From Undibacterium hunanense (GTDB lineage: Bacteria > Pseudomonadota > Gammaproteobacteria > Burkholderiales > Burkholderiaceae_D): 64,000 nucleotides of DNA. Shown here piece by piece: positions 51,421 through 59,055 of this stretch. Within the stretch, counting starts at the first letter, position 1; each line of letters starts with the position of its first letter. The notes beneath the pieces are model-generated. The model ran no database searches. It had not been told where the DNA came from and saw only the letters and a program-made list of their open reading frames with translations. The stretch is from contig NZ_JACOGF010000001.1 of NCBI RefSeq assembly GCF_014284335.1, positions 186,001-250,000 of the forward strand, given 5' to 3'. Position numbers and translations under genes: made by a program.

Positions 51421-54099
51421 TCAATCCAGTTTTTTGAGGGCTTCTTTGACATAACTGGCATTCGGGCTATTCGGCGACAGTTCCAGGAAACTGGTGTACG
51501 CTTTTTTAGCTTTTTCATTTTCATTCAGCATGGCTCTGGCATCCCCCAGATTCAGATAAGCAATGGCGCGGGATGGATCAATCTGCAAGGTGTTTTCAAA
51601 CCAGCGCGCTGCCTCTGCATATTTTTGCTGCTTGAAATAGACAAAGCCCAGATTGTTGGCTGCCAGACCAAAATCAGGCCGGTATTTCAAGGCTTCGGTA
51701 AATGCCGCTTCAGCCTGGGCATACTGTTTTTCTCTATACAGTTGCAAACCACTGTCATTGGCTCTTTGTGCCAACTGGCGTGATGGTGCATCCACCATTT
51801 TGGGGGCGGCAATTTTCTGCTCGCCACCATTCAGATTTTTAATGACAATAGGTGTCTCGCTGCCGGCCTTGGCGGTTGCGCCGTCTATTTTGTTGTTGAG
51901 CGCAATCGCATCGGCAGATAACTGATTGGTTTTTGCACTCAAGAACTCACCTTCGCTGCGCATCTCAAATACAAACTCGCCACCTTCAGAACCCGGCAAA
52001 CTGCCAAATGCCGGCGTCTGCTGCGACATGCTCGACACTGCCGGGGCAATATAGGCAGCCAGTTCGGTCGCAGTAATCATGCCGTCGCCATTCAGATCCG
52101 CCTTGCCGCTTAATGCCTGCAGCAGAGTCCAGGTAAATACGGAATGGCCATTGGGCCCGCCGTCTGCCACCAGTTGATCGGCACCACCAGCCGTCAGCAT
52201 CTGCCGGCCCATGCGACGTGCATTTTCACGCAGGAAGGCACTGCTGCCACCGCCGCGTGTCAAGCCCAGACCACTGTAACAGGCATCCATCACAAACAGG
52301 ATATGTTTGGCATTCAGGCTTTCGGCAATATTTTGCAGATCTGTCATGGGAATGGCATCGACTGACAATTGTTCAGGGTCAGAATCTACCGGGATGATAT
52401 AGCCCAGATTGCGACCAGAACTCAGCTTTCTGGTGGCACCGTGACCGGCAAAGAAGACGAACACCCTGTCATCCTTTTTCAATTGTCCGTGCCCCAGTTT
52501 TTCATGGAACAGGGCCAGGATATTATTTCTGGTGGCATCACCATTGGTCAGTGTCAATACCTTGTCACCCGGGAAGCCCAGTTTACTGACCAGGGTATCG
52601 CGAATGGCATTAGCATCCTGCACGGCATATTGCAACTTGGGCCATTTGGCATAATCATTGATACCGATCACGATAGCCCAGCTATTTTGATAATCGGTAC
52701 TGATACTGACTTTTTCCGGAGTCGCCTTGCCGCCCTTGACGACCTTGAAATCTGTCCCATCCCAGGATGCAAAGCTATAGCCATCGGCGATCAGTTTATC
52801 CAGCACCAGAGGCAGGGCCTTGACCGTGCGTTCGTGGATATCATGGAAAAGAATGATGCCGCGCTGTTCTTTTTCCAGCGTACCCAGGACGCGGCCCGCA
52901 ATCGAGTTCGGCACCGGATCAGCCCAGTCCAGAGAGTCAATGTTCCACATCACAGAACGCAGACCAAGCCTGCCCAGGATTTGCATGCCCTCCTTGCTCT
53001 TGGCTCCATACGGGAAGCGGAACAGGGCCGAACGCGCTGGATCAATCGCTTTCAGCAATTTGTCGGTCTGCTCGATTTCTGCATTAAGGCTGTCGCCACT
53101 TTGCTTTGACAGCAAGGCATGACTGAAACTGTGATTCGCCAGCACATGACCGGCACTCAGCAACTTCCTGCTGGTTTCGGCATTTTTATTCAGCAGTTCT
53201 TTGCCTTTGCCGTCTATGCTACCAACGTTTTTGCCGACCTGGAAAAATACACCGGGCACATTGTATTGCTTCAATATCGCCGCGATTTCATCGGTATATG
53301 TGGCATGGGGACCATCGTCAAAGGTCAGCACCACGGTCTTGGCTGGCAAGCCCTGGCCGAAAATGTCTTTTTCCTTTTCGCTTAGTGGTTCCGGCTTTTC
53401 TGGATACGGCAGGATAATGCCGTAATCTTTCAGGATTTGTTCGCGGTTATATAATTTGCGCAGTTTGGCGAGATAGTCATCCCAGCGTTCACGTTTCAAC
53501 TCTATCGAACGCGATTCAAAGCGAGAGAATATTTCCTTAAGCTCTTTGTCGTATTCTTTTTCAATTTCGCTCAAGGCATTCAAATCATCGCTGACGCGTT
53601 TGTGCAATTTAATCGAAGGCAGGGTCTGCTCGGTAGCGATCAGCTTTTGCATCCTGACCAATACTTCCCTGAATGCCAGACGGTCGGCGTCATACAGGTC
53701 TTCGCCAGATTCTATATACGTCAGTATGTTGTCAAAGCTGGCTTCACGCTGAACAGCACGGCGCGTTTTGAGCTTGTCGAAATAGGCATCGAGATTATTC
53801 AACCTGACCAGGTTTTCATGAAACAGGGCCTGTCCTATGCGATTGGCTTCATTGCGCTCTTTGGGCCCCTGTTTATTTTCATCTGCCAACAAAACAATGA
53901 TCTTGCGGTAGGCGACCAGCAAGCCATTCAAGTCATCCGGAATTTTACTGGCATCAAAACCATCTTTGGGATCAATCAGTGCAGATTCAGCACTGGCACC
54001 ACCTCCTTCAGCAGGGGTACTTTTATGAATGACAAAATAGGCAGCAACAGCCAGACAAACTGCCGCTAAGGCAGGCACAATAATCTTGAGTGGTTTCAT
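51421..54099 (-). CDS. Membrane-anchored NodB deacetylase / caspase / EF-hand / TPR fusion protein
   Basis: 892 residues. N-terminal signal-anchor (7-24, IVPALAAVCLAVAAYFVIHK), helical region to ~235, then polysaccharide deacetylase: TFDDGPH (259-265), HSFSH metal pair (H323, H327), RFPYG (361-365), LFHD (417-420). A caspase-like peptidase (C14) follows: WAIVIGINDYAKWPKLQYAVQDA start, catalytic His in FFAGHG (H553) and Cys in DACYSG (C607). Next comes a canonical EF-hand loop, D668-E679 (DxNxDGxIxxxE), then TPRs (~783-880). The catalytic residues of both enzymes look intact. The protein most likely faces the periplasm. Function is inference: cell-wall or glycan editing coupled to a calcium-linked protease. 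Confidence 0.85.
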   Translation of the reverse strand: MKPLKIIVPALAAVCLAVAAYFVIHKSTPAEGGGASAESALIDPKDGFDASKIPDDLNGLLVAYRKIIVLLADENKQGPKERNEANRIGQALFHENLVRLNNLDAYFDKLKTRRAVQREASFDNILTYIESGEDLYDADRLAFREVLVRMQKLIATEQTLPSIKLHKRVSDDLNALSEIEKEYDKELKEIFSRFESRSIELKRERWDDYLAKLRKLYNREQILKDYGIILPYPEKPEPLSEKEKDIFGQGLPAKTVVLTFDDGPHATYTDEIAAILKQYNVPGVFFQVGKNVGSIDGKGKELLNKNAETSRKLLSAGHVLANHSFSHALLSKQSGDSLNAEIEQTDKLLKAIDPARSALFRFPYGAKSKEGMQILGRLGLRSVMWNIDSLDWADPVPNSIAGRVLGTLEKEQRGIILFHDIHERTVKALPLVLDKLIADGYSFASWDGTDFKVVKGGKATPEKVSISTDYQNSWAIVIGINDYAKWPKLQYAVQDANAIRDTLVSKLGFPGDKVLTLTNGDATRNNILALFHEKLGHGQLKKDDRVFVFFAGHGATRKLSSGRNLGYIIPVDSDPEQLSVDAIPMTDLQNIAESLNAKHILFVMDACYSGLGLTRGGGSSAFLRENARRMGRQMLTAGGADQLVADGGPNGHSVFTWTLLQALSGKADLNGDGMITATELAAYIAPAVSSMSQQTPAFGSLPGSEGGEFVFEMRSEGEFLSAKTNQLSADAIALNNKIDGATAKAGSETPIVIKNLNGGEQKIAAPKMVDAPSRQLAQRANDSGLQLYREKQYAQAEAAFTEALKYRPDFGLAANNLGFVYFKQQKYAEAARWFENTLQIDPSRAIAYLNLGDARAMLNENEKAKKAYTSFLELSPNSPNASYVKEALKKLD

Positions 54100-54910: not shown

Positions 54911-55132
54911 ATTGGCTGTTCCCAAACAGTAAAACCCCTGACGCAACCGCGCATTAACAAAACACGCAAAGTATGGGCAAACCAGGCCATCGTGAACGAG
55001 TCTGGCTTGCTCAAATATTTCCAAGTGAGCATTTTTTTATGTTAAAGTCATTATGTTTTTATCCATAGTTTACTGCACTACCCACCGCCCATACATCCCC
55101 CGATCATACCAAGCCAGCGCAGGAGCCGTCTC

Positions 55133-57199
55133 ATGTTCGCAGCCATACCTGAAACACCGCAGCACGCTATCAAGAATCGCCCACTGTCAGAATTCAACAC
55201 CGATGCTGCTGCCGTGAGGGCAATTGCCCAGGCGACTGTCAGTGTCGAGTTATTTACGATACCGCTGTACATGAATTCCATGTATTCGATCTATGGCACG
55301 CACCAGATCAATTCCAAGGGTAACAACTATTATAAGGGTCGCCAATGGCCGGGCATGGCTACCACGGCAAACGCCGTTACAGCCAACGAACGTGCCTTCA
55401 ATGTCATATTCAGTGTATTCATTCAGGAAATGCTGCATTTGCAAATGGCCGCCAATATCGCTACGGCAATTGGTGTCGATCCCAGCTTTACTGAAAATTC
55501 AGGTCTGCAAAACACTGAGCGTGGCTGGATTTGCTATGGCCCCGACAAGCACACCATACCTTGCATTGTTGATCTCAGGGACACCAACAGCTATAAGGAT
55601 GTCAGGGTCAATCTGGAGTCATTGAATCAAAACCAGATTGACCTGTTTTTGGCAATCGAGCAGCCAGAAAAGCAGGCACGCGAAGAACTGCGCCACAATG
55701 CCGATAAATACTTCCCCGCAGTGCCGCTGGCTGACTGGAATCCTGACAAGGGATTTGCTGATCTGCCGCTGTTCGGCACTATCGGCTATATGTATGAATG
55801 CTATGCAAAATACATCAGCATGGAATATACGGATGGTCAGACACTATGGCAAAAACTGTTTGATAACGAGTCTGTGCAAAAAGACATGTTCAATGTCCAT
55901 AGCACACCCAAACAGCCCAACGACAGTCATCCCAAAAAAGAATATCCGCATTTTGAGACTTTGTTCGGCCCTGACGATCTTGATGGCGGCATGGCCCGTT
56001 CGCAAAACAAGGCGATTGACATGATGTGTGCCATTACCGATCAGGGCGAAGGTAATTCCGCAGGAATCAAACACTATCGCCGCACGCATTTACTGCGTGC
56101 CGTACAGCCTGACTATCGCGAATCAGACGAAGCTTTGAAGGTCGATTACCCTGCGTATGACGGTGATGGCGAGTTAGCAGAATCGAGAGATGCTTCCGCA
56201 CGTTTTCATAGCGCGGCATTTGATCACTATGAACGCTTTCAGGATATCCAAAAAGAGATGGCGCATCCCGGAGAGACCGCCGCAAATCATTTGCTGACCT
56301 GGGAACAATGGCATGCCGTTGTAGGCAATCAGTGGACGGCTGCCATGTTGACCAATAAGGATTACGATGCTGCGTCAGCGCCACAAAATATCCCTACACC
56401 TGACGAAGTTGCCGGTGCACTGAATCGCCTGAAAAGCGAAGGTGCAAAAACCGTACAGATGTTAAGCAGCGTATCTGCGGGGGCAATTTATGGCATTACC
56501 TCGGTACTGGACGAATACTGGGCAAATAAGGATACCAACTTCCCTTATCCATCTATGGTCGGTTCAGGTGACCGCATGTCAATTTGCTGGGCGATCACAG
56601 GTTGCTCGCCCGATTTATCCGTCAGCGTTCCACTACCAGACAAGAATGTTTTATACCATTCGTGTCAGGGTCTGGATTTTAACGCCAGCAAGGGATCAGA
56701 AACCGGACAGGAAGACAATCAATGCGCAGCCATTGCGGTGTATCACAGTTGCCGTGGCTCAAATGGTTGTGAAGCCCAGGGTGGCTGTGGTTTTGTCCAG
56801 GTAGACATGGTCGTTGATCCAGAAAAGAAACCCGTTCTGGGCGCAACGGCAGACCGTGGCTCACACGGTATTTGTGGCGCGCCAGGCCCTGCACCTACCG
56901 GCACCCTGTATAGTTCGCCTAGCGATAACCGCTGCAAGACCTATGGCGGCTGTGCCGTGCCTATCTCGGCATCACAACTGTTTCCAGTGAATGGCACAAT
57001 GACACTGTACACTTTTGATGCTGAGCCACCCCATGAAGCACAATTATTGAAAAACAAGAACATTGATTTCAAACAAGGTGATGCCGTGTTTGACACGGCC
57101 TGGGCAGCGTATAGCAAGGTCATGATCGCTCGCCATAAAAACCCGGGGGAAATGCCGAAGCCAAATGACTTACGCCTGGCTTTGCCACCTTCAACCTGA
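55133..57199 (+). CDS. VioB-like ferritin-fold protein with cysteine-rich C-terminal domain
   Basis: 688 residues, no signal peptide. Residues ~25-230 form a ferritin-like (PF12902/VioB-type) diiron helix bundle: E39 in SVELFTIPLY and E99/H102 in IQEMLHLQM fit metal ligands. Residues ~485-610 hold ten cysteines (C485, C491, C511, C531, C540, C546, C552, C581, C601, C607), four of them in C-x4-G-C repeats and two in YHSC[QR]G motifs (508-513, 537-542). The HSCxG core recalls the HSCAG of DUF2282 bufferin precursors. GGAG ribosome-binding site before the ATG. First gene of a tight operon with the MNIO enzyme and its partner, so the tail is the likely substrate. Confidence 0.85.
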   Translation: MFAAIPETPQHAIKNRPLSEFNTDAAAVRAIAQATVSVELFTIPLYMNSMYSIYGTHQINSKGNNYYKGRQWPGMATTANAVTANERAFNVIFSVFIQEMLHLQMAANIATAIGVDPSFTENSGLQNTERGWICYGPDKHTIPCIVDLRDTNSYKDVRVNLESLNQNQIDLFLAIEQPEKQAREELRHNADKYFPAVPLADWNPDKGFADLPLFGTIGYMYECYAKYISMEYTDGQTLWQKLFDNESVQKDMFNVHSTPKQPNDSHPKKEYPHFETLFGPDDLDGGMARSQNKAIDMMCAITDQGEGNSAGIKHYRRTHLLRAVQPDYRESDEALKVDYPAYDGDGELAESRDASARFHSAAFDHYERFQDIQKEMAHPGETAANHLLTWEQWHAVVGNQWTAAMLTNKDYDAASAPQNIPTPDEVAGALNRLKSEGAKTVQMLSSVSAGAIYGITSVLDEYWANKDTNFPYPSMVGSGDRMSICWAITGCSPDLSVSVPLPDKNVLYHSCQGLDFNASKGSETGQEDNQCAAIAVYHSCRGSNGCEAQGGCGFVQVDMVVDPEKKPVLGATADRGSHGICGAPGPAPTGTLYSSPSDNRCKTYGGCAVPISASQLFPVNGTMTLYTFDAEPPHEAQLLKNKNIDFKQGDAVFDTAWAAYSKVMIARHKNPGEMPKPNDLRLALPPST

Positions 57200-57211
57200 T
57201 GATATATAAGC

Positions 57212-58168
57212 ATGTCTGAGAAGTACGCTGCGCACACCATGCAAACTACGCAGACTATGCAGCCACGTCTGGGCCTGCCCAATCTGGGCCTGGGCGTTGG
57301 TCTGCGCAATATGCACTTTGAGCACATACTGAAATACGGTGCCGGCGTAGCCTGGTTTGAAGTGATCACAGAAAACTTCATTGATAACCATGGCTATGCG
57401 CGTCATGTGCTGGAACACATCGCGCAAACCTGCCCCATTGTCATGCATGGTGTTTCACTGTCAATAGGCAGTAGCGATGCGCTGGATTTTGACTATCTAA
57501 AAAAACTCAGGCAACTGGCGAAGGAATTACAGCCTGCCTGGGTGTCGGACCATTTGTGCTGGACTGGTGCAACAGGAATGAATACGCATGATTTACTGCC
57601 ACTCCCCTTGAACGAGGCCACGCTGGAACATGTGGCTGAACGTGTACGCATAGTGCAGGATTATCTGGAGCGTCCACTGATCATGGAAAACCCCAGCACC
57701 TATGTAGAATTTGAACAGTCAAGCATGGCTGAGGATGAATTCTTAAGTCGTTTAAGCGAAAAAACCGGCTGTGGTCTGCTGCTGGATGTCAATAATGTTT
57801 ATGTGTCGGCCTATAACCATGGCTTTGATGCTGAACGCTATATACGTAACCTGCCTGCGGATCGCATCGTGCAGATTCATCTGGCGGGGCCAAGTCATTG
57901 TGGCGACTATATGATAGATACGCATGATCAGCCAGTGCCTACGCCTGTATGGCATCTATATGCTTTGGCGCAGGAATTGACAGGAGGTGTATCAACTTTA
58001 CTGGAATGGGACGCCAACATCCCCTCTTACCCTGAATTGCTGGCAGAACTGGGCAAGGCACGACTGGTCATGGATGGTCACTTTCCAGACATGAAAATCA
58101 ATACGGCATCTGCGGCAAGCATTTCTACGCCTTTGCATTTTCAGTTGGAAGAACTCAGCACCTCATGA
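57212..58168 (+). CDS. MNIO-family (DUF692) multinuclear non-heme iron oxidase
   Basis: 318 residues, TIM barrel. Expected iron ligands are seen: E54 (ITENF), H79 (MHGVSLSIGS), D113/H114 (SDHLCW), E159 (IMENPSTY), D192/N194 (LLDVNNVY), H203, H223 (QIHLAG), D236/H238 (IDTHDQP) and E265 (LEWD). MNIO enzymes such as MbnB and those of bufferin clusters install thiazole- or oxazolone-type changes on cysteines in peptides. It starts 12 bp after the cysteine-rich protein and its last codons overlap the next start (ATGA), so all three are one operon. Confidence 0.9.
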   Translation: MSEKYAAHTMQTTQTMQPRLGLPNLGLGVGLRNMHFEHILKYGAGVAWFEVITENFIDNHGYARHVLEHIAQTCPIVMHGVSLSIGSSDALDFDYLKKLRQLAKELQPAWVSDHLCWTGATGMNTHDLLPLPLNEATLEHVAERVRIVQDYLERPLIMENPSTYVEFEQSSMAEDEFLSRLSEKTGCGLLLDVNNVYVSAYNHGFDAERYIRNLPADRIVQIHLAGPSHCGDYMIDTHDQPVPTPVWHLYALAQELTGGVSTLLEWDANIPSYPELLAELGKARLVMDGHFPDMKINTASAASISTPLHFQLEELSTS

Positions 58169-59055
58169 ATCAGCCATTACCTGATCCATTGCTATCGCAA
58201 TTGCAAAACTGGTTTTTAACAGTGATGACCGCACCCGGTGGACTGGCAAGAGGCTTATCTCTGGCGCAGGAACATCTGGGCCTGGCAGAATCAGCCGTTA
58301 TCAAGACTGCGCCAGGCAAGCAATCACGCATGCATATCTACGCCCATGGCTATATCCTGCGTTTACAGGAATGCCTGCAAGCTGACTTCCCGGTTTTACA
58401 TCGCCTGATGGGCAATGATCTGTTCAATTTTTTTGCACATAACTATATCTGGCGCCACCCATCCCGCGCACCGTCTTTGTATGATCTGGGTGCTGGTTTT
58501 GCCGATTTTCTGCAGCAAAGTCAGCCCACCAGCACAGATGGAGAAAATGCAGGTGAAGCGGACCTGCTATTGCAGTTTCCCATAGAGGTGGCAAGGCTGG
58601 AACGGGCATTTACCGAAGTTATACGGGCACTAGGACTGGAACAAGACCGCAACATCAAAACCCATCATGCATTTGACTTGCTGATGGGTGTACATGCCAA
58701 CATCCATATTCCGGCCTGCGTACGCCTGCTGAAAACCAGCTTTCCTTTACTGGCGTACTGGGAGCAGGCCAAGCATACGCCCGCTGACCAGGATTTGCCA
58801 GCACCACCAGATCCTGAAACCAGCTATCTGGCATTTACACGCCAGCATTACCGGGTACAATTGATCAACCTGCTGCCGTGGCAATATCATTTTTTACAGG
58901 CTGCGTATCACAATTCTGATCTTCATCAATGTGCAGTACAAGCCTCACAAGAAACCGGGCTGGGCATTCAGGCACTGCTGGCAGATATCTGCCTGTGGCA
59001 GCCACAAGCACAGGCGCTTGGACTGCTGACCACAGAAAAGATGACCTTGATCTGA
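58165..59055 (+). CDS. DUF2063-domain protein, MNIO partner (BufC-like)
   Basis: 296 residues. The N-terminal ~100 residues are the DUF2063 region (LSLAQEHLGL…KQSRMHIYAHGYILRLQECLQADFPVLHRLMGNDLFNFFAHNYIW). A second helical half carries HQCAVQASQETG. DUF2063 proteins are the usual partners of DUF692 enzymes in RiPP clusters and are thought to hold the substrate peptide. ATGA overlap with the MNIO gene. Confidence 0.88.
   Translation: MNQPLPDPLLSQLQNWFLTVMTAPGGLARGLSLAQEHLGLAESAVIKTAPGKQSRMHIYAHGYILRLQECLQADFPVLHRLMGNDLFNFFAHNYIWRHPSRAPSLYDLGAGFADFLQQSQPTSTDGENAGEADLLLQFPIEVARLERAFTEVIRALGLEQDRNIKTHHAFDLLMGVHANIHIPACVRLLKTSFPLLAYWEQAKHTPADQDLPAPPDPETSYLAFTRQHYRVQLINLLPWQYHFLQAAYHNSDLHQCAVQASQETGLGIQALLADICLWQPQAQALGLLTTEKMTLI

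Follow-up and report, generated by a model that had tools for sequence, protein, structure and literature searches.

In this study we characterise a three-gene operon of Undibacterium hunanense, found in a stretch of 64,000 nucleotides (contig NZ_JACOGF010000001.1, positions 186,001 to 250,000; hereafter the window), in which the gene for a 688-residue ferritin-like protein precedes genes for an MNIO (DUF692) enzyme and its DUF2063 partner. Pairs of MNIO and DUF2063 proteins are reported to turn cysteines of bufferins and captophorins into thiooxazoles, with a loss of four hydrogens per cysteine and an absorbance at about 302-305 nm (PMC12668002, PMC12538549, PMC12452194). Our analyses suggest that the operon is probably a protein-sized relative of the bufferin systems whose product is apparently not exported, and in which the MNIO enzyme would oxidise a cysteine-rich segment of the ferritin-like protein. 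This segment is a well-supported candidate substrate, since it is adjacent to an MNIO gene wherever the contig is long enough and since the operon holds no separate cysteine-rich precursor. The assignment rests mainly on operon structure, conservation and association, and agrees with an earlier note on this DNA, which had proposed from the letters alone that the cysteines of the large protein take the place of a small precursor.

The ferritin-like protein and its cysteine-rich segment

The N-terminal region of the protein matches PF12902 (residues 33-312, E 6e-22, 79 bits against a cut-off of 22.3). The earlier note had recognised here a diiron bundle of the PF12902 type with E39, E99 and H102; these residues are in place, and E176, E306 and H365 complete the putative set of ligands, the last lying just past the end of the domain. 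Across 67 aligned sequences E99, H102, E176, E306 and H365 are present in every row and E39 in all 66 rows that cover it, and all six are kept in 18/18 rows of a further alignment (A3), including three PF12902 proteins that lack the cysteine-rich segment (hereafter tail-less). Because the set is invariant and common to tail-less members it fits a diiron site, at which the six residues would bind iron, and the domain is probably active. When the structure model was compared with the PDB using Foldseek, the only significant matches were two chains of 3hl1 (CC_0557, E 1.5e-7), and a search of viral structure models by fold returned no significant match to the protein.

All ten cysteines reported earlier between residues 485 and 607 were located (positions 485, 491, 511, 531, 540, 546, 552, 581, 601 and 607). 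Their description as a tail holds in part: the cysteine-rich region is real, but it is internal rather than terminal, lying in the AlphaFold2 model between a folded, helical part that ends near residue 508 and another folded part at about 611-688. This model has a mean predicted local distance difference test score (pLDDT) of 80.6 and a predicted template modelling score of 0.86, and rests on an alignment of 28 rows. Values of pLDDT below 50 occur at residues 1-6, 317-322, 510-513, 519-553, 559-592 and 594-608, such that the cysteine-rich segment is the sole long stretch of low confidence. Conservation also divides the ten cysteines, as 511, 531, 540, 546, 552 and 607 are invariant (67/67 rows) and Cys601 occurs in 63/67, while Cys485 is found in just 34/67 and Cys491 is likewise not conserved; Cys581, present in 58/58 ungapped rows, sits in a linker whose length and cysteine number vary. 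The conserved motifs follow the order HxCQ, CA, HxCxxSNxCxxxGGCG, the variable linker (7-88 residues with 0-6 cysteines across the 67 sequences) and NxCxxxGGCxxPI. In three Sphingomonas relatives (L059, L061 and L063) the linker and the C-terminal part contain CGxPTPxP-type repeats whose number differs between sequences, and one of the 67 sequences has eight cysteines after residue 616.

Invariant cysteines and GGC motifs equally fit a structural or iron-sulfur site, and the segment might thus be an ordinary metal or redox site of a ferritin-like enzyme (a zinc knuckle, an iron-sulfur cluster or disulfides), with the MNIO target elsewhere; a model that leaves metals out and draws on just 28 aligned rows is compatible with such a site. 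However, model confidence is low at all invariant cysteines of the segment, its linker varies widely in length, the segment accompanies one MNIO clade (see below), and a profile of the segment finds no match among solved chains up to E 1, all of which make this explanation unlikely. That invariant residues fall where the model is unable to assign a position would instead fit a substrate loop, or a loop that takes up its fold only once it is modified or has bound metal.

Judged by hydropathy only, the protein has no apparent Sec signal or transmembrane stretch, the highest 19-residue hydropathy within the first 40 residues being 1.43 over the 67 sequences, some of whose starts are uncertain; it is thus apparently a non-exported protein. 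Its C-terminal peptide LRLALPPST (57170-57196) is conserved to the end, with R681, P685 and P686 in 65/67 rows and gaps in the other two. This peptide hinted at an encapsulin cargo, a candidate that was rejected as the genome has no PF04454 match.

Association of the segment with MNIO genes

A scan of GTDB with one genome per species recovered 58 loci encoding relatives of the ferritin-like protein, from Burkholderiales, Chromobacterium, Caulobacter, Sphingomonas, Vibrio, Motilimonas, Marinobacterium and others. The genes for the ferritin-like protein, the MNIO enzyme and the DUF2063 partner share the same order and strand at 57/58 of these loci, and at the 58th (L051) the contig stops inside the first gene. 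Homologs that carry the tail with no DUF692 gene nearby, whose wide occurrence the earlier note had named as evidence against its proposal, were not found; an MNIO gene is adjacent wherever the contig is long enough. The closest relatives found, at 89% protein identity, belong to Undibacterium pigrum and to a metagenome-assembled genome of the Burkholderiales. Among 196 near genomes, 18 (the source genome included) encode the protein, with an MNIO gene adjoining in 17 and the contig ending too early in the other (G017). In one genome of the same genus (G042; L014, L022 and L027) the ferritin-like gene is split into three frames and the DUF2063 gene into two, the MNIO frame being open, which reflects either an operon copy in decay or errors in the sequence.

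To the segment by itself we applied a profile built from a 29-row alignment (A1), scoring for each genome the 10 or 13 candidates that ranked best at a first look. Matches occur in 29/294 genomes of the family and 2/398 of the phylum (the source genome counting in both), every one of them adjacent to an MNIO gene and, except for one broken copy, within frames of 563-761 residues. Neither the segment alone nor its fusion to other proteins was seen among these best-scoring candidates, the scan being confined to this phylum; as only those candidates were scored, a stand-alone segment elsewhere in the scanned genomes is best described as unlikely. The converse comparison starts from PF12902, which was found in 15/299 phylum genomes at 18 places, comprising 11 tail-less proteins, three weak partial matches without an MNIO gene, and four places that represent three tailed proteins (those of the window, of genome G618 and, at two places, of genome G466), all three of which adjoin an MNIO gene. 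At the 11 tail-less loci no MNIO gene lies in the flanking DNA covered, 0.98-1.16 kb on the downstream side of the frame and 0.3-1.4 kb on the upstream side, and these proteins carry the CxxxGGC motif in 0/11 cases and at most three cysteines in their last 200 residues. Conservation of the segment and its association with MNIO genes exceed chance by far.

Gaps of 108 bp upstream of the operon, 12 bp between its first two genes and 30 bp downstream, together with a 4-bp ATGA overlap of the MNIO and DUF2063 genes, are too short to accommodate a gene for a small precursor, in accord with the earlier statement that the operon has none.

Genes surrounding the operon were compared at 42 loci. Neighbour families common to at least four of these are nearly all confined to one genus-level group (Caulobacter, Sphingomonas or Undibacterium). 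Two cross between groups: one in L044, L047, L048, L062 and L085 at varying place and orientation, judged from its L048 member to be an EAL/GGDEF protein, and an ABC transporter shared by Sphingomonas and L066.

A divergent relative and phage-borne copies

Genome G466 encodes a distant cousin (742 residues in the listed frame, 24% identical to the window protein) with the same plan of PF12902 domain, cysteine segment, MNIO enzyme and DUF2063 partner with an ATGA overlap. Its segment was first spotted by eye, and the segment profile reaches the protein only at E ~1e-4. Among 78 genomes of its order the full protein occurs in G466 alone, and a plasmid search with its segment found nothing.

Two IMG/VR contigs of tailed phages (L200/L201, 71 kb; L202, 35 kb) encode a ferritin-like protein with the cysteine segment followed by an MNIO enzyme (at 3522-6515 in L200 and 9998-13170 in L202). 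The pair lies close to the terminase gene, with genes for portal, head protease and major head protein also present, and a third contig contains a ferritin-like copy cut by the contig end. In the 71-kb record, which may be incomplete, nothing matches DUF2063 up to E 1, and L202 offers just a 58-residue frame that is weakly DUF2063-like (E 0.0015) and has no Pfam match. A gene resembling flavin adenine dinucleotide-dependent monooxygenases follows the pair in L202. Named phage records gave no match. Beyond the 67 aligned sequences, the phage and G466 copies retain all seven conserved cysteines.

Relationship of the enzyme and segment to bufferin systems

The MNIO enzyme of the window scores 354 bits against PF05114 (cut-off 25) and 352.2 bits against the NCBIfam model MNIO_BufB (cut-off 310), and the latter cut-off is also passed by 7/7 other ferritin-linked MNIOs tested, including those of G466 and phage. 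Fourteen positions (E50, N55, H79, H114, E159, N160, D192, N194, N195, H223, D236, H238, E265 and D267) are identical in 30/30 ferritin-linked and in 46/46 bufferin-linked MNIOs. In a midpoint-rooted tree of these 76 enzymes the ferritin-linked ones form a single clade (30/30, support 0.997), with the G466 enzyme as its earliest branch, and join 26 BufA2-linked and two BufA1-linked MNIOs in a group with support 0.983. The DUF2063 partner of the window matches PF09836 (E 1.7e-22), as do all nine other partners scanned, above the cut-off of that family.

Profile methods also detect, weakly, a resemblance of the segment to BufA2. Comparison using hhalign gave a score of 26.9, above all 100 column shuffles (mean 10.5, standard deviation 2.3, maximum 18.3), over 13 columns with a possible CxGxNxCxxxG core, and 22/33 segments scored singly exceed the 99th percentile of shuffled sequences (990 in number), with a median of 6.5 bits compared to 2.9 for reversed sequences.

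The ferritin-like protein could alternatively be a second tailoring enzyme, with a small precursor encoded elsewhere as the true substrate. PF12902 proteins in other settings adjoin oxidases such as a GMC oxidoreductase and, in fungi, are reported beside LodA-like genes (PMC4417212), and Antoine et al. took some proteins encoded before MNIO genes as enzymes and not substrates (PMC12452194). The source genome (6.28 Mb, 108 contigs) has three MNIOs, of which one adjoins a BufA2 bufferin (NF050166, 101.6 bits) and another a DUF2282 bufferin of the BufA1 kind, each with its own PF09836 partner. As these are the only BufA2 and DUF2282 matches in the genome, no orphan bufferin of these two kinds is left for the MNIO of the operon, other kinds of precursor not having been sought genome-wide. 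Furthermore, the cysteine segment is itself precursor-like and its CxxxGGC motif is absent from the tail-less PF12902 proteins, the ferritin-linked MNIOs form a separate clade, and the 71-kb phage contig pairs the ferritin-like protein with an MNIO enzyme and no DUF2063 partner. We regard this alternative as very unlikely.

Operon layout and genomic setting

Boundaries of the three genes, their 12-bp gap and the ATGA overlap are exactly as first reported (Table 1). Scans for promoters and terminators gave no clear excess above shuffles. Elsewhere in the window, an 892-residue protein encoded at 51421-54099 on the minus strand combines polysaccharide deacetylase and caspase-type (Peptidase_C14) domains with TPR repeats.

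Table 1. Features of the operon, in window coordinates
Feature	Position	Strand	Basis
Ferritin-like (PF12902) protein, 688 residues, with internal cysteine-rich segment	55133..57199	+	Gene call and Pfam
MNIO (DUF692) enzyme, 318 residues	57212..58168	+	PF05114 and NCBIfam BufB model
DUF2063 partner, 296 residues, PME-type 1 by PF09836 match	58165..59055	+	
AGGAG, resembling a ribosome-binding site, ATG 7 bp further on	55121..55125	+	Sequence reading
Ferritin-like domain, residues 33-312	55229..56068	+	PF12902; fold match 3hl1
Cysteine-rich segment, residues 509-608, candidate MNIO substrate, pLDDT mostly below 50	56657..56956	+	
Folded C-terminal part, residues 611-688, last residues LRLALPPST	56963..57196	+	AlphaFold, alignment

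Proposed mechanism and its implications

We propose that in this ferritin-like protein of the diiron type two folded parts flank a flexible stretch that holds six or seven conserved cysteines. The MNIO enzyme would dock, probably via its DUF2063 partner, and oxidise some of these cysteines within the protein, the most likely products being 5-thiooxazoles as reported for bufferins and captophorins. Both the identity of the substrate and this chemistry are inferred by analogy. The modified cysteines might then serve as soft-metal ligands carried on the ferritin-like protein, where they would most likely bind or buffer a soft metal, Cu(I) or another, within the cell, and the adjacent diiron site could oxidise the metal or oxygen species. 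Copper as the metal, as well as any coupling to the diiron site, is a guess; as no neighbour family keeps a fixed place across distant groups, genomic context gives no hint of copper.

A different outcome of the same modification is that the segment becomes a redox or catalytic cofactor of the diiron site, with no role in metal buffering. Retention of the six putative ligands in all covering rows (66 or 67 of 67, and 18/18 in A3), which suggests an active ferritin domain, would suit such a cofactor, as would the finding that among the candidates scored the segment never occurs apart from the protein in the 294 family and 398 phylum genomes. Set against this, copper is bound by the products known from related MNIOs (PMC12668002, PMC12538549), bufferins are reported to protect against copper (PMC12452194), and within the open-licence PMC literature we found no report of a reaction for PF12902 proteins of this type. 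A cofactor role is therefore conceivable, and in our view rather doubtful.

Several observations weigh against our proposal that the segment is a bufferin-like MNIO substrate. The similarity to BufA2 covers a short alignment with an hhalign probability of 41%, 11/33 single segments, including that of the window (4.0 bits against 5.3), fail the threshold, and only five of the 33 beat the best shuffle (9.8 bits). Closeness to BufA1 was rejected, with a score of 17.5 against 17.9 for the best shuffle and 3/33 single segments passing, and a HMMER comparison of a 145-residue segment with NCBIfam and Pfam matched no bufferin model up to E 10. Pairing of the ferritin-linked clade with the 26 BufA2-linked MNIOs alone has a support of just 0.694, a Pseudoalteromonas copy, outside the 67 aligned sequences, has no Cys 531, and, as noted, none of the neighbour families at the 42 loci keeps its place across distant groups. 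Low pLDDT in a model built from 28 aligned sequences is no proof that the segment is disordered. From the literature, FonBC left unprocessed those motifs tested in which the cysteine is followed by a charged residue, NACKG among them (PMC12668002), and in the window protein a charged residue follows C540, C546 and C601; expression of the MNIO-DUF2063 system mmr of Microbulbifer was reported as not seen with or without copper (PMC12538549). Finally, PME-type 1 partners are described as accompanying precursors with signal peptides (PMC12452194). Given PF09836 partners and no apparent signal this published correlation fails here, such that another recognition element would be needed, for which the conserved C-terminal peptide is, speculatively, a candidate.

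More broadly, we tentatively raise the possibility that an MNIO pair remodels cysteines within a large, non-exported diiron protein, with ligands of the thiooxazole type forming a built-in metal site or cofactor. The chemistry of ribosomally synthesized and post-translationally modified peptides would then serve to mature an enzyme, both in bacteria and in tailed phages, and one phage form would do so with no DUF2063 partner encoded alongside. In the cited literature the characterised MNIO products are peptides; if true, our proposal would extend thiooxazole chemistry into enzyme maturation, the substrate being a loop within a folded protein of the diiron type, would break the published tie of DUF2063-type partners to exported precursors, and would allow thiooxazole formation at the scale of a protein to be tested in a genetically simple system of three genes. 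The phage copies would further imply a possible metal or redox function carried by phages.

Comparison with known systems

Tail-less PF12902 proteins, of which CC_0557 (PDB 3hl1) is the solved representative, have the same fold as the window protein by Foldseek, and the three that were aligned (CC_0557 not among them) share all six putative diiron ligands; they differ in having no cysteine segment and, at the 11 loci examined, no adjacent MNIO gene. Captophorins (fontiphorin, oxazolin and gonophorin; PMC12668002) are likewise described as products of an MNIO enzyme with a PME1 partner acting on a cysteine-rich substrate, yielding thiooxazoles and involving copper; unlike the ferritin-like protein, they are peptides with EGKCG-type repeats.

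In assessing novelty, the earlier view that no such example had been described proved too strong. Antoine et al. (2025, PMC12452194) report bufferin-domain fusions (Buf1/Cytochrom_C/FGE-sulfatase, MerC/Buf1, MerC/Buf2 and Buf_EGKCG/EF-hand) and propose that proteins too may be MNIO substrates. The operon resembles these fusions in joining a cysteine module of the bufferin type to a larger protein; in the published cases, however, the modules match bufferin models and the MerC ones are periplasmic, whereas here the carrier is a PF12902 protein of the diiron type without an apparent export signal. The main text of that paper, as distinct from its supplements, does not contain 'Ferritin', 'PF12902' or 'VioB' and does not name the ferritin-like type, and within the open-licence PMC literature we found nothing relevant linking MNIO or DUF692 with ferritin-like proteins. 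A possible identity with the adjamnio-1 group of the same authors, represented by a Massilia protein, was considered; that group is described with PME-type 2 partners in place of the PF09836 partners found here.

The closest parallel is with the BufA2 (NF050166) and BufA1 (DUF2282, PF10048) systems, with which the operon shares the order of substrate, MNIO enzyme and DUF2063 partner, an MNIO enzyme above the BufB cut-off that falls in one well-supported group with BufA2- and BufA1-linked enzymes and, for BufA2, a possible cysteine motif of the CxGxNxC type seen by weak profile methods only. It differs from them in the size of the putative substrate (556-778 residues, some sequences being cut short, compared to about 85 in bufferins), in the absence of an apparent Sec signal and in the placement of the cysteine motif inside a ferritin-like protein. 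As operon, enzyme group and, weakly, motif are bufferin-like while the family models are unmatched, the operon would work in the manner of a bufferin system built around a protein that, by the available tests, lies outside the bufferin families.

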